Positions 26,438 through 35,274 of a DNA stretch of 64,000 nucleotides are shown one piece after another (within the stretch, counting starts at the first letter, position 1; each line of letters starts with the position of its first letter). Both the position numbers and the translations under genes were made by a program. Below the pieces are notes generated by a model. The model worked only from the letters and a program-made list of their open reading frames with translations, searched no databases and had not been told where the DNA came from. The stretch comes from Bradyrhizobium sp. WSM471 (GTDB lineage Bacteria > Pseudomonadota > Alphaproteobacteria > Rhizobiales > Xanthobacteraceae). The stretch covers positions 5,394,001 to 5,458,000 of the forward strand of contig NZ_CM001442.1 of NCBI RefSeq assembly GCF_000244915.1. The letters run 5' to 3'.

Positions 26438-26920
26438 CTACCCCTCCTTGAAGCCATATTCCGGCACATTGCCGCTGGCGCCGTAATATTTGTACGGCAG
26501 GAATTTGCCGCTCATGGTGATCTTGACACGGTCGCCCTTCGGGTTGGGCAGGCGCTCCATCACCATGTCGAAGTCGATCGCCGACATGATGCCGTCGCCG
26601 TACTCCTCCTCGATCAGCGCCTTCCAGGCCGGACCGTTGACCATGACCAGCTCGTAGAAGCGGTAGATCAAGGGATCGGTCGGCGGCATCGGCATGCCGC
26701 GCATCGGCGTCTCGTTCAGCATCGTGGTCTCGGCCTTCGTCAGGCCGAAAAGCTCAGCAGCGTTGGCGGCCTGCGGCTTAGTCAATTTCATCTGGCCGAG
26801 GATCGCGCCTGTTATCAGCACCTCGGAATAGCCGCCGATCTGCTCGCAGATATATTTCCAGGTCCAGCCCTTCTCGCGCTTGATGTCGAGCAGCTTCTCG
26901 GTGAGGTCTTCGCGTTTCAT
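26438..26920 (-). CDS. cynS: Cyanate hydratase (cyanase)
   Basis: A 160-aa enzyme converting cyanate plus bicarbonate to ammonia and CO2. The catalytic triad known from the E. coli enzyme (Arg96, Glu99, Ser122) is present as Arg87 and Glu90 in IYRFYEL and Ser113 in DGIMSAIDF. The N-terminal helical domain is LTEKLLDIKREKGWTWKYIC. The C-terminus is slightly longer than in E. coli. It is the last gene of the cyanate transport operon, 16 bases after the ATPase gene, and so probably under the sigma-54 promoter at 30290-30304. Confidence 0.98.
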   Translation of the reverse strand: MKREDLTEKLLDIKREKGWTWKYICEQIGGYSEVLITGAILGQMKLTKPQAANAAELFGLTKAETTMLNETPMRGMPMPPTDPLIYRFYELVMVNGPAWKALIEEEYGDGIMSAIDFDMVMERLPNPKGDRVKITMSGKFLPYKYYGASGNVPEYGFKEG

Positions 26921-26936: not shown

Positions 26937-27860
26937 TCAAGCAGTCAGCCCGGGACTCGTCCCGGGTATCCAGGTCTGTCGTTGCTCGTCGCCACCGGAC
27001 GCGACGGTCAGTCCGGGCTTGCCGATATGCACCACCGGTACATTGCGCGGATCTTGACCGGGCGTCTCGGCCGCGAAAGTCTTGCTGCGCGTCACCAGGA
27101 AATCAACGATGTGGTTGCGCAGCGCGTAGTACAGCGGATGGCGGTGCAAATCGGTGCGGCCGCGATCCCGCGGCAACGGGTTCTCGACCACTTCCGCCAG
27201 CACCGCGCCGGGTCCATTGGTCATCAGGAAAATCTTGTCGGCGAGATAGATCGCTTCGTCGACGTCATGGGTGATCATGAACGCGGTCTGCCCGGTCTCC
27301 AGACAGATGCGCCGCACCTCGTCCTGCAGCGTGCCGCGCGTCAGCGCGTCGAGTGCCGAGAACGGCTCGTCCATCAGCATCATCTTTGGCGTGATCGACA
27401 GTGCACGCGCGATGCCGACGCGCTGCTTCATCCCGCCGGAAAGCTCGGAAGGTCGCTTGTGTTCCGAACCCGTCAGGCCGACGAGATCGATAAATTTCTG
27501 CGCATGCGCCTTCACCTTGGCGCGATCCCAGCTCCGCCATTTCGAGCTCACGGCGTAGGCAACGTTGCCGAGCACGGTGCGCCAGGGCAGCAGCGCATGG
27601 CTCTGGAAGATCACGGCGCGATCGAGGCTCGTCCCTGAAATGGCCTGCCCGTCGACGATCACCGCGCCTTCGCTCGGCGCATCGAGGCCGGCGAGGATGT
27701 TGAGCACCGTGGTCTTGCCGCAGCCGGAATGGCCGATCACGCAGCAGAACTCGCCGCGCGCCATCGACAGCCACAGATTCTCGAAGACCGCCGTTGTCGC
27801 GCCGTCCGCGCCCGGATAGCGCTTTGCGATGGCTTCGATGGAGATGAATTTTTCGGTCAA
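26937..27860 (-). CDS. Nitrate/cyanate-type ABC transporter ATP-binding protein
   Basis: A 307-aa ABC ATPase. Walker A is IGHSGCGKTT, the signature is LSGGMKQRVGIARAL, Walker B is MMLMDEPFSALDALT and the switch histidine is in MITHDVDEAIYLAD. The C-terminal 50 residues extend beyond the core domain. No ATG is available near the start; TTG at 27860 has GGAG eight bases upstream, overlapping the end of the permease gene, and fits the family start (LTEKFISIEAIAKRYPG). Linkage to cynS suggests cyanate as substrate. Confidence 0.9.
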   Translation of the reverse strand: MTEKFISIEAIAKRYPGADGATTAVFENLWLSMARGEFCCVIGHSGCGKTTVLNILAGLDAPSEGAVIVDGQAISGTSLDRAVIFQSHALLPWRTVLGNVAYAVSSKWRSWDRAKVKAHAQKFIDLVGLTGSEHKRPSELSGGMKQRVGIARALSITPKMMLMDEPFSALDALTRGTLQDEVRRICLETGQTAFMITHDVDEAIYLADKIFLMTNGPGAVLAEVVENPLPRDRGRTDLHRHPLYYALRNHIVDFLVTRSKTFAAETPGQDPRNVPVVHIGKPGLTVASGGDEQRQTWIPGTSPGLTA

Positions 27861-27865
27861 CGGCC

Positions 27866-28708
27866 CTACTCCGGAAACGTGACCATGCGCGTGAAACGCG
27901 CGAGGATCTGGTCGAGCAGCATGCCGACGACCCCGATCAAGAGGATCGCGATGATCACGTTGGTGATCGACAGATTGTTCCACTCGTTCCAGACGAAATA
28001 GCCGATGCCGGTGCCGCCGACGAGCATTTCGGCCGCGACGATCACGAGCCAGGCGATGCCGATCGAGATGCGCATGCCGGTCAAGATCGTCGGTGCTGCC
28101 GCGGGCAGGATCACGGTGAAGGCGCGCCTGATCGTTCCGACCTCGAGCGTTCGCGCGACATTGATCCATTCCTTGCGTACGCTCGCGACCCCGAACACGG
28201 TGTTGAGCAGCATCGGCCAGATCGAGCAGATGAAGATGACGAAGATCGCCGAGATCGAGGAATCCTTGATGGTGTAGAGCGCGAGCGGCATCCACGCCAG
28301 TGGCGAGATCGGCTTCAGCACTTGGATGAAGGGATCGAGCGCCTGGCTGAGCAGCGGCGACATGCCGATCAGGAAGCCGAGCGGGATGGCGACGAGCACG
28401 GCGAGCAGATAGCCGGCGCCGACGCGCGCGATCGAATAACCGAGCTGGATGCCGAGCCCCTTGTCGTTCGGCCCGTTGTCGTAGAACGGCCTCCTCAAAT
28501 GCTCCCAGAGCTTTGCGCCGACATCGAACGGCCCGGGCATGGCGGATTTGCCCTGCGTCGCGGTCAGGCCCATCAGCTTGGCGTATTCCGCGCTCATCGT
28601 GGCCACCGGTGCGGTCGAGCGCACGGCGAGATGCCAGACGCCGAGGAACGCGACGAGCAGCACGATCGATACCAGGCCGGCGCGGAGACGGAGGGAGGCG
28701 GTGGTCAT
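27866..28708 (-). CDS. Nitrate/cyanate-type ABC transporter permease
   Basis: A 280-aa inner-membrane permease of the NrtB/SsuC type with six or so helices and the EAA-like cytoplasmic loop (VARTLEVGTIRRAFTVILPA). A periplasmic loop precedes the core (residues 30-85). Its Shine-Dalgarno sequence lies in the 3' arm of an inverted-repeat hairpin that ends two bases before the ATG, so translation may be structurally controlled. Confidence 0.92.
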   Translation of the reverse strand: MTTASLRLRAGLVSIVLLVAFLGVWHLAVRSTAPVATMSAEYAKLMGLTATQGKSAMPGPFDVGAKLWEHLRRPFYDNGPNDKGLGIQLGYSIARVGAGYLLAVLVAIPLGFLIGMSPLLSQALDPFIQVLKPISPLAWMPLALYTIKDSSISAIFVIFICSIWPMLLNTVFGVASVRKEWINVARTLEVGTIRRAFTVILPAAAPTILTGMRISIGIAWLVIVAAEMLVGGTGIGYFVWNEWNNLSITNVIIAILLIGVVGMLLDQILARFTRMVTFPE

Positions 28709-28709
28709 C

Positions 28710-28853
28710 TCCCTCTCCCCGTTCTTACGGGGAGAGGGTTGGGGTGAGGGGCATGCTTCCGCATATTCGGTGAGAGACGAACTCGCGGAGAGTCCCCCTC
28801 ACCCGGATTGCATCTAACGATGCAATCCGACCTTTCCCCGCAAGCGGGGCGAG
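28710..28853. repeat. Intergenic inverted-repeat element inside the cyanate operon
   Basis: It holds three hairpins: CCCTCTCCCCG / CGGGGAGAGGG next to the permease start, GGATTGCATC / GATGCAATCC (28804-28827), and CCCCGC / GCGGGG (28836-28849). A related element is at 32382-32536. Within the operon it separates the abundant binding-protein gene from the permease gene, where such hairpins often stabilise the upstream message. Confidence 0.85.
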
Positions 28854-28874
28854 GTGAAAAAAAAGCGCGGCCGC

Positions 28875-30254
28875 TCACGACGCCTTCCTGATCTTGAAGC
28901 CCGCCAAATAATCCTCCGGCTTGGCTGGATCGAAAGTCTTGCCCATCACCGCGAACGATTTGTAGCTGCCGGCTGGCGGCGCGAGGCCCATCTCGGTCAT
29001 CAGCTTCCTGGTGTCGGTGGCGAGATACACCTGCTCGGCGATCGCCTTGTAATCGACGTCGCCCTTGATCTGGCCCCAGCGCTTCATCTGCGTCAGCATC
29101 CACACCCCAAAGGACTGCCAGGGGAACGGATCGAAATCGACGCGCTTGGCATCCGTCTTCACGCCGCCGAGGCCGTCGGCATAGGTGCCGGTCAAGACCT
29201 GTTCCAACACCGTGACCGGCGCGTTGATGTAGTTCGCCGGCGCGATGGCTTCCGCGATCTGCTTGCGGTTCTCCGCCTTCGAGGCATAGGCCGTGGCATC
29301 GACGATCGCGCGCGTCAGCGCAGCAAAGCTGTTCGGCGCCGTGGTGATGAACTCGCGGCTGGCGGCGAAGCTGCAGCAGGGATGGCCGTCCCAGATTTCC
29401 TTGGACAAAAGATGCATGAAGCCGACGCCGTCATAGATCGCGCGCTGGCAGATGTTGTCGGGCGCGAGGAAACCGTCGATGTTGTCGGCGCGCAGGTTTG
29501 CCACCATTTCCGGCGGCGGTACCGAACGCAGTTGCACGTCGGTATCGGGGTCGATCCCGTGTTCGGCGAGATAGTAGCGCAGCAGGTAATTGTGCATGGA
29601 ATAGTCGAAGGGGATGGCGAACTTCATGCCCTTCCAGTCCTTCGGATCGCGCTTGTCCTTGTGCTTCATGGCAAGCGTGATGCCCTGCCCGTTGATGTTC
29701 TCGATCGCTGGGACCGCGAACGGAATGGGGTTCGAGCCGAGGCCGAGCGAGATCGCCAGCGGCATCGGCGCCAGCATGTGCGCGGCGTCGTATTCCTTGT
29801 TGATGGTCTTGTCGCGGACCACGGCCCAGCCGGCGGTCTTCACCACGTCGACGTTGAGGCCGTGCTTGGCATAGAAGCCCAGCGGCGCCGCCATGATGAT
29901 CGGCGTGGCGCAGGTGATCGGGATGAAGCCGACCTTGAGGTCCTTCTTTTCCGGCGCGCCGGCTTGCGCAAACACTTCGGTCGCGGTCTGAAGCGGGAAG
30001 AACTGAGACAGCGCAGCCAGCGCGGTGGAGGCCCCGACCGACTTCAGGAACGCGCGTCGCGCAACGTCCTGCGGAAACATCGCGCGCATCACGGCAGAGG
30101 CGACCACGCCCTCGTAGCGCTTCTCTTCGCTCTCGACGGGAGCACAGCGCAACGCGGTGGCCTGCTCATGCTCCGCCGCGGATTGATGCTGACCACAGGC
30201 ACAGCCGGCTCGCAGGTTGCGATCGGGATCAAACGGATTGTCGAAAGTGGACAT
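28875..30254 (-). CDS. Tat-exported ABC substrate-binding protein, NrtA/CmpA-like (cyanate transport candidate)
   Basis: A 459-aa binding protein of the nitrate/bicarbonate/cyanate family (KVGFIPITCATPIIMAAPLG, PFDYSMHNYLLRYYLAEHG, LRADNIDGFLAPDNICQRAI). A twin-arginine motif (RRAFLK, residues 66-71) and hydrophobic stretch indicate Tat export, but it is preceded by an unusual 65-residue N-terminal extension rich in Cys and His (AGCACGQHQ, RCAPV). AGGAGG lies four bases before the ATG. It is the first gene of the operon ending in cynS. Cyanate as ligand is inferred from that linkage; nitrate is the main alternative. Confidence 0.92.
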   Translation of the reverse strand: MSTFDNPFDPDRNLRAGCACGQHQSAAEHEQATALRCAPVESEEKRYEGVVASAVMRAMFPQDVARRAFLKSVGASTALAALSQFFPLQTATEVFAQAGAPEKKDLKVGFIPITCATPIIMAAPLGFYAKHGLNVDVVKTAGWAVVRDKTINKEYDAAHMLAPMPLAISLGLGSNPIPFAVPAIENINGQGITLAMKHKDKRDPKDWKGMKFAIPFDYSMHNYLLRYYLAEHGIDPDTDVQLRSVPPPEMVANLRADNIDGFLAPDNICQRAIYDGVGFMHLLSKEIWDGHPCCSFAASREFITTAPNSFAALTRAIVDATAYASKAENRKQIAEAIAPANYINAPVTVLEQVLTGTYADGLGGVKTDAKRVDFDPFPWQSFGVWMLTQMKRWGQIKGDVDYKAIAEQVYLATDTRKLMTEMGLAPPAGSYKSFAVMGKTFDPAKPEDYLAGFKIRKAS

Positions 30255-30289
30255 CGGACCTCCTGCGCGTCATTTGCGAGGAGAATTAC

Positions 30290-30304
30290 GCAAGGAGCAT
30301 GCCA
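30290..30304 (-). promoter_or_regulatory. Sigma-54 (-24/-12) promoter of the cyanate operon
   Basis: On the minus strand the sequence reads TGGCATG-CTCC-TTGC, matching the RpoN consensus TGGCACG-N4-TTGC at 10 of 11 fixed positions, with the invariant GG and GC. The predicted transcript start is near 30278, giving a leader of about 24 bases that includes the AGGAGG before the binding-protein ATG at 30254. The divergent neighbour is a sigma-54 activator gene. Confidence 0.82.
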
Positions 30305-30363
30305 CCACCCTCAGGCCGGCCAGTGCCTTGATGACGCAGCACTTTCGCTCACACTTGGTCATT

Positions 30364-30413
30364 ACGAAAATTCGTGATAAACGATATTTCGTAGTTGAAT
30401 AACGAGATTTCGT
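30364..30413. promoter_or_regulatory. Three palindromic activator sites between cyanate operon and activator gene
   Basis: Three 12-bp sites are seen: ACGAAAATTCGT (30364-30375), ACGATATTTCGT (30381-30392) and ACGAGATTTCGT (30402-30413). Each differs by one base from the perfect palindrome ACGAAATTTCGT. They lie 60-110 bases upstream of the -24/-12 promoter, the normal position of sigma-54 enhancer sites, and the third ends one base before the activator ATG, so it could also mediate autoregulation. Confidence 0.8.
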
Positions 30414-30414
30414 A

Positions 30415-32349
<1,935 letters not shown>

Positions 32350-32381
32350 AGCATGGCGAGATTGGAATGCATGTTGATGTG

Positions 32382-32536
32382 CCCTCGCCCCTTGTGGGAG
32401 AGGGCAGCGACGCCGGTAGACGCAGACTCGCTTGGGTGAGGGGTCTGTCTCCGCGAGTCCGACGCCGATTTGAATCGCGGAGAGAGACCCCTCATCCGGC
32501 GCTCCGCGCCACCTTCTCCCACAAGGGGAGAAGGGG
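32382..32536. repeat. Intergenic inverted-repeat element
   Basis: The outer arms CCCTCGCCCCTTGTGGGAGA and its counterpart TCTCCCACAAGGGGAGAAGG match imperfectly; the inner parts GTGAGGGGTC and GACCCCTCAT also pair. It belongs to the same class as 28710-28853 and lies between the convergent activator and sulfurtransferase genes. Confidence 0.85.
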
Positions 32537-32568
32537 TACCGAGTCCGCGGGCCGCCGGTTAGCGGTAA

Positions 32569-34660: not shown

Positions 34661-35203
34661 CTAGATGCCGACCTCGAGATTGACCGGGCGGGTGAAGGTG
34701 TTTGCGACCGGCGACCATTGCTTCACATGGGCGACCAGCGCATTGATCTCGTCCGGCGAGATCCCCTCACATTCCATGTCGACCTTGACGCGTACGTCGG
34801 TGAAGCCGACCGGCTTGTCCGAGACGTCGCCGGTGCCCCAGACCGCGGTGATGTTGAGATCGCCCTCGAGCTCGAGCTCGAGCTTGTTGACGATCCAGCC
34901 GCGATGCACGGCGTTGGCGTGCAGGCCGACGGCGAGGCAGGAGCCCAGCGCGGCGAGCGAGGCCTCGGACGGATTGGGCGCAGTGTCGTCGCCGAGCAGA
35001 CCGGGCGGCTCGTCGACGATGTAGGGCTGCAAATTGCGGATGTAGTTGGCGTGGCGGAATTTTCCTTCCGCGACCGTCTTGCACTTCAAGGTCTTGATGA
35101 CCTTCGGATTGGCCTTGCCGTTGGCGATCAGTTGCTCGAGGCCATTCTTGTCGATGGGCGCGAGGCAACCCGTCAGCACTGTCTTTTGAACGACGGCAGT
35201 CAT
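34661..35203 (-). CDS. OsmC family protein
   Basis: A 180-aa OsmC/Ohr-type protein. The conserved cysteine is in SLAALGSCLAVGLHANA, with FRHANYIRNLQPYIVDEP upstream and the C-terminal WSPVANTFTRPVNLEVGI. Family members are thiol peroxidases acting on organic hydroperoxides, although many, like this one, lack a clear second catalytic Cys in the usual place. Two adjacent ATGs exist; the one at 35203 is best spaced from GGGAG. It is first in an operon that appears to start from a -24/-12-type promoter. Confidence 0.88.
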   Translation of the reverse strand: MTAVVQKTVLTGCLAPIDKNGLEQLIANGKANPKVIKTLKCKTVAEGKFRHANYIRNLQPYIVDEPPGLLGDDTAPNPSEASLAALGSCLAVGLHANAVHRGWIVNKLELELEGDLNITAVWGTGDVSDKPVGFTDVRVKVDMECEGISPDEINALVAHVKQWSPVANTFTRPVNLEVGI

Positions 35204-35259
35204 CATCTTCTCCCTGGCAGAAGTGGAAATCGGTAGGATACCGAACGGTCTGTTTCCTT

Positions 35260-35274
35260 GCATGGAGCGTGCCA
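35260..35274 (-). promoter_or_regulatory. Sigma-54-like (-24/-12) promoter of the OsmC operon
   Basis: On the minus strand the sequence reads TGGCACG-CTCC-ATGC. The -24 part is a perfect match and the -12 part has one mismatch (A for the first T of TTGC) but keeps the essential GC. The four-base spacer CTCC is the same as in the cyanate promoter at 30290-30304. The predicted start is near 35248, about 45 bases before the ATG at 35203. No ACGAAATTTCGT site was seen nearby. Confidence 0.6.

Follow-up and report, generated by a model that had tools for sequence, protein, structure and literature searches.

The locus lies within a 64,000-nucleotide stretch of the genome of Bradyrhizobium sp. WSM471 (hereafter the window) and consists of two divergent sets of genes whose start codons, at 30254 on the reverse strand and 30415 on the forward strand, are 160 bp apart (Table 1). 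On one side stand genes for a periplasmic binding protein, an ABC permease, an ABC ATPase and cyanase, and on the other a single gene with a sigma54-interaction AAA+ domain; this is the CynF-type arrangement, and the domain matches bear out both the operon order and the divergent PAS-type sigma54 activator of the original prediction, which had been made from the sequence alone. The start codon of the ATPase gene is uncertain, and is probably a TTG near 27860. Two GC-rich, repeat-like stretches that look alike by eye (CTCCCC...ACCCGG type) are found at 28709-28870, between the cynA- and cynB-position genes, and at 32360-32540, after the activator gene.

Table 1. Genes and putative regulatory features of the cyn locus, with positions counted from the first base of the window.
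Feature	Position	Strand	Remarks
Cyanase, cynS	26438..26920	-	Cyanate_lyase; PF02560 and TIGR00673 over cut-off
ABC ATPase, cynD position	26937..27866	-	ABC_tran; ntrCD model just below cut-off (287.0 vs 291.8)
ABC permease, cynB position	27866..28708	-	BPD_transp_1; ntrB model over cut-off
Periplasmic binding protein, cynA position	28875..30254	-	NMT1_2
-24/-12 (sigma54-type) promoter element of the cyn operon, TGGCATGCTCCTTGC	30290..30304	-	10/11 consensus bases
Possible activator-gene promoter, TTGGTC-N17-TAAACG	30355..30383	+	weak, by eye; overlaps sites 1 and 2
Candidate operator site 1, ACGAAAATTCGT	30364..30375	.	palindrome nearest the cyn promoter
Candidate operator site 2, ACGATATTTCGT	30381..30392	.	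17 bp from site 1
Candidate operator site 3, ACGAGATTTCGT	30402..30413	.	21 bp from site 2
Activator gene, CynF-type	30415..32349	+	two PAS domains, Sigma54_activat (AAA+), C-terminal helix-turn-helix segment

The intergenic region carries a sigma54-type element, scored here against the consensus TGGCACG-N4-TTGC (11 specified bases); its GG (-24) and GC (-12) have the context and spacing of the consensus. It is present before the binding-protein gene where it had been predicted, and closely upstream as claimed, although a recount gives 35 nt to the ATG and not 36. Taken alone, the element is not beyond chance: a scan of the window at up to two mismatches returned 27 matches against 29.5 expected, and its support comes from conservation in related loci, described below, and not from its own match score. 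The genome encodes one protein with a sigma54 DNA-binding domain, the product of an rpoN-type gene. A consensus scan of this region gave no sigma70-type site for the activator gene; the TTGG and TA columns of the possible promoter picked by eye are at least 0.98 conserved in the alignment of 81 loci.

Further upstream, at a distance of 59 to 109 nt from the -24 end of the promoter element, are three 12-bp palindromes, each one base off ACGAAATTTCGT and sharing the half-sites ACGA-N4-TCGT; the third stops a single base short of the activator ATG. All three are found at the places given in the original prediction, some 60-110 bases upstream. A single site of this kind is weak evidence, since the 12-mer has four matches in the window at up to two mismatches and 13 of 100 shuffles reach that number. 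The single 12-mer is also not unique in the genome, where ACGANATNTCGT has 190 matches at up to one mismatch against 117 for a reversed-pattern control. Pairing alone is unique: pairs of ACGA-N4-TCGT sites (gap 4-11) occur in the 7.78-Mb genome at this locus only, which points to a dedicated switch. Within the window, the three palindromes are the sole matches at up to one mismatch, the exact ACGA-N4-TCGT pattern is found at these three places only, and 200 first-order Markov simulations averaged 0.085 matches at up to one mismatch per 64 kb, none of them yielding a triple within 60 bp. The triple greatly exceeds what chance would produce, and chance palindromes were rejected as an explanation given the uniqueness of the paired sites and the lack of any simulated triple.

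Conservation among close relatives was assessed by scanning genome contigs with the first 320 residues of the activator; 80 of 370 relatives were kept, mostly Bradyrhizobium with a few Tardiphaga and one metagenome-assembled genome labelled Rhodospirillum. The activator is adjoined by cynS in 76 of these 80 loci, and the remaining four end within 2.7 kb on that side. All 81 rows (the window and the 80 relatives) retain the -24/-12 element with no more than two mismatches, and also the ACGA-N4-TCGT triple, with at least 22 of its 24 half-site bases and a spacing of 17 and 21 bp; the palindromes thus withstood the search of related genomes that had been proposed for them. Information content in the alignment is distributed unevenly: the 24 half-site columns carry 1.91 bits on average vs 1.25 for the 12 core columns, the fixed promoter columns (11) 1.88, the stretch leading up to the binding-protein gene 1.37, the two inter-site spacers 1.54 and 1.27, and the 59 columns from the promoter to site 1 an average of 0.96. 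Fixed half-sites with drifting cores are the pattern expected from protein contacts. In four of the relatives (L079-L082) the best binding-protein match is found downstream of the activator and not at the cyn promoter (in L081, for example, from 8892), which implies an additional binding-protein gene there.

The activator was compared column by column in 27 of the 47 activators used for the tree below. Its KPTTLxSR helix-turn-helix segment is nearly invariant in 21 family members, and in the second PAS domain His207, His211, His212 and Cys225 are invariant in 21 family members; these four residues do not name the ligand, since six outgroup proteins have them too. The PAS-box model excepted, the protein reached the curated cut-off of none of the 25 NCBIfam families listed. 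Against the curated NorR model it scores 369.1 bits (cut-off 476), and with two PAS domains and no GAF match it was rejected as a member of the NorR family. A sequence comparison with solved structures returned nothing beyond AAA+ domains from other activators and some weak matches to PAS domains.

An activator of this kind has a precedent. According to one report (PMC6627978), CynF of Pseudomonas pseudoalcaligenes CECT5344 is a Fis-like sigma54-dependent regulator encoded divergently from cynABDS, 268 bp from cynA, which is preceded by a putative sigma54 promoter; the operon is induced by cyanate, a CynF mutant lacks cyanase activity and fails to grow on cyanate, CynF is essential for cynABDS expression, and similar gene arrangements occur in alpha-, beta- and gammaproteobacteria. 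The CECT5344 (P. pseudoalcaligenes/oleovorans) cynFABDS locus is like the window in its divergent sigma54 activator, gene set and putative sigma54 promoter. The original prediction had called a PAS-sigma54 switch a different regulatory design for cyanase, and on the CynF precedent that claim of novelty was rejected, whereas the mechanism it proposed is strongly supported by comparison. That report also describes CynR of Escherichia coli, which is likewise a positive regulator adjoining cynS but belongs to the LysR family and is accompanied by genes for carbonic anhydrase and an MFS transporter (PMC6627978).

Three loci in our dataset (L201, L205, L206) are inferred from the published layout to be of CECT5344 type: hemE follows cynS in L205 and L206, a gene for the large subunit of glutamate synthase lies beyond cynF in L201, and cynF is separated from cynA by 268 bp in L201 and L205 and by 267 bp in L206. 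Their activators are homologous to that of the window over its length, at 58-59% identity, and the three loci have the same triple, with sites 2 and 3 placed 23 bp apart vs 21 in the window and a gap of 268 bp vs 160. A comparable enhancer is that of norVW in E. coli, where three enhancer sites in the divergent intergenic region are essential for activation by NorR and a scaffold for higher-order assembly (PMC2941729); the window likewise has three conserved sites between the divergent activator gene and its target, upstream of a putative sigma54 promoter. NorR differs from the window activator in having a GAF sensor, for nitric oxide. We found no binding site for CynF or NitA in the open-access literature searched, where the operator sites seem undescribed. 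The present analysis adds the candidate operator with its strict geometry, and shows how widely it occurs and that nit1C clusters have it too.

In more distant bacteria, the N-terminal part of the activator has matches at 1e-20 or better in 120 of 398 Pseudomonadota genomes, and strong matches (at least 261 bits) in 19. For 18 of these 19 strong homologues cynS is within 4.5 kb; the nineteenth (genome G190) has no cynS match, and there the activator faces a nit1C cluster. As cynS was found in 70 of the 398 genomes overall, the switch serves a minority of cynS genes. The triple scores at least 21/24 at 18 of the 19 strong homologues, the exception being G016 (L100/L192) with 18/24. Larger regions were taken for 13 of the 19 strong homologues and for 20 of the 26 matches from 298 genomes of the family of G190, and in 31 of these 33 regions the triple scores at least 20/24 (exceptions L192 and L203), whereas controls reached at most 17 with random pieces (up to 40 for each locus) and 19 with resampled sequences (60 for each locus). 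Considering all 26 matches in the family of G190, 24 have the triple; the exceptions are L164, which is the same place as L203, and L183, which is not a fair test because the match began inside the protein. The distant homologues preceded by the triple have 48-68% identity, and nine families contain it: f1 (the window's own), f2, f5, f14, f22, f40, f44, f51 and f55.

A search of the 398 genomes for exact site pairs with a gap of 4-6 bases gave hits in 13, vs 4 for a reversed-pattern control. In 11 genomes the gap is 5 bases, and all of these pairs are within 200 bp of the N-terminal match of the activator; 6-base gaps occur in two genomes, G190 and G397, and the pair in G397, with no such activator within the 7.5 kb examined, was set aside as chance. 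Counts for the promoter are confined to the close rows, the automatic pick being 238 nt away in L201, L202, L204 and L207.

Activator and operator are also absent together. In ten loci where cynS has no activator next to it, the best triple on either strand scores no more than 17/24. In L224, from a genome of the window's own genus (G335), the cynABDS, rhodanese, acyl-CoA-dehydrogenase and OsmC genes are kept at 91-97% identity, and the activator and the triple are gone; the 120-bp gap left there has no -24/-12 element at up to two mismatches on the operon strand, and one two-mismatch match on the other. By these comparisons, the activator, the candidate operator and the putative promoter are one co-inherited module attached to cynS. 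Two exceptions were observed in which cynABDS and a CynF-like activator occur without a clear triple, L192 (G016), where the score of 18/24 is at control level, and L203/L164 (G587:C213), where there is none.

The targets of the activator and triple are more varied. Besides cynABDS, they include an FNT-type transporter with cynS (L189, where the FNT hit of 144.8 bits is below cut-off, and probably L200) and cynS with no ABC genes detected beside it (L194-L196, L219). In 11 of the 33 larger regions the activator faces nitB/nitC-type genes: L187 and L210 have NCBIfam matches to an MSMEG_0572 family protein, a Nit6803 nitrilase and an MSMEG_0568 radical SAM protein, and the other nit-linked regions match NitB and NitC of L210 in tblastn searches. 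NitA is named as a sigma54-type regulator of nit1C in the literature (PMC8567248, PMC11049912, PMC5333837, PMC6368324). Like the window, the NitA/nit1C loci have a homologous sigma54 regulator (54-56% identity), the same triple and a divergent operon; they differ in that a nitrilase cluster is controlled and in the spacing of sites 1 and 2. Counted over distinct places with a triple of at least 20, this spacing is 18 bp in all 14 nit-linked cases and 17 bp in all 21 cyn-linked ones, as it is in each of the 81 Bradyrhizobium-type rows.

A quick tree was calculated from 47 activators: that of the window, seven from the 80 Bradyrhizobium-type loci, 33 distant ones and six outgroup sequences. The NitA sequences group in a single clade (SH-aLRT 100) that falls among the cyn-linked activators and whose exact place, between the window activator and Pseudomonas CynF, has modest support in this tree. 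Given that NitA nests in this way, CynF is assigned by gene neighbourhood and not as a separate clade, and the contrast between 17 and 18 bp may go back to a single historical event. We offer only as a tentative idea, with the odds against it, that CynF and NitA share one operator code in which a spacing of 17 or 18 bp between sites 1 and 2 decides which operon responds, or permits graded cross-talk, so that one PAS-sigma54 family would run both cyanate and cyanide/nitrile assimilation.

At the window locus, the comparisons argue with good confidence for a CynF-type control region, in which a dedicated PAS-AAA+ activator would act through a three-site enhancer on a sigma54 promoter of the cyn operon. 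A dimer of the activator would bind each ACGA-N4-TCGT palindrome through the KPTTLxSR segment, the three palindromes serving as an enhancer about 60-110 bp upstream of the promoter. A cyanate-related signal, suggested by the Pseudomonas relative, would be received by the PAS region; the three sites would help to assemble the AAA+ ring, as in NorR, and the ring would contact sigma54 polymerase at the -24/-12 element via DNA looping, whereupon transcription of the cyanate transporter and cyanase genes would start. Since the sites overlap the start region of its gene, the activator probably restrains its own production as well.

This last role could instead be the principal one: the palindromes might chiefly serve autorepression of the activator gene, with cyn activation not needing all three. 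The position of site 3 immediately before the activator ATG would suit such a role, as would the placing of all three sites on the activator's side of the gap. In L189, L190, L194, L195, L200, L205, L206 and L209, however, site 3 is at least 100 bp before the matched activator start and the triple geometry is kept. In addition, site 1 lies at clustered distances from the -24 end, near 58, 69, 80, 91 and 101 nt, with a period of 10.9 (p 0.0044, for five cluster centres rounded by hand and a scanned period), which is suggestive of helical phasing of the sites with the cyn promoter; we consider a mainly autoregulatory function improbable. That the palindromes are an element of RNA or DNA secondary structure, such as a terminator or attenuator, with no protein sites, is barely credible. 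They are inverted repeats, also with each other, but a scan found no terminator-like site at the locus, on which ground an RNA or terminator element was rejected; moreover, the cores and spacers vary between loci whereas the half-sites do not, and the spacings of 17-18 and 21-23 bp persist even where the proteins have diverged widely, as contacts with a protein would lead one to expect.

It is very unlikely that the general nitrogen regulator NtrC drives the operon and the neighbouring activator acts elsewhere. Palindromes resembling the NtrC consensus do occur in the leaders of some gammaproteobacterial-type cyn loci, but no such site is present at up to two mismatches in window positions 30000-30700, and NtrC was rejected as a direct regulator at this locus. 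Furthermore, operator and activator gene occur together and disappear together. Repression of cyanase by ammonium in P. pseudoalcaligenes would fit control by NtrC, and against this the same source has CynF as essential there (PMC6627978). In L189, L190, L194 and L200, NtrC-like palindromes (for example TGCGCCGTCCTGGTGCA, 1-2 mismatches) are found in the interval from the sigma54 promoter to the cyn-side gene, and are a possible route for ammonium control in those lineages.

The CynF-type control region supplies a testable candidate operator for a known activator family. Three ACGA-N4-TCGT sites spaced by 17-18 and then 21-23 bp, together with a -24/-12 element, can serve as a genome marker of operons for cyanate or nitrile use, including those in which cynS has an FNT-type transporter gene next to it or no transporter genes were detected; and a three-site enhancer whose geometry is held over great protein divergence is useful for examining how the number and phasing of sites set AAA+ ring assembly.

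A second -24/-12-like element, TGGCACGCTCCATGC, was observed in the window at 35260-35274 on the reverse strand, upstream of the OsmC gene (34661-35206), where it precedes OsmC, acyl-CoA-dehydrogenase-like and rhodanese genes. The window scan found no ACGA-N4-TCGT near it. This element has one mismatch of 11 in all 61 related loci with a complete OsmC start, and a TetR-type box, ACCGAACGGT, overlaps its expected transcript start.
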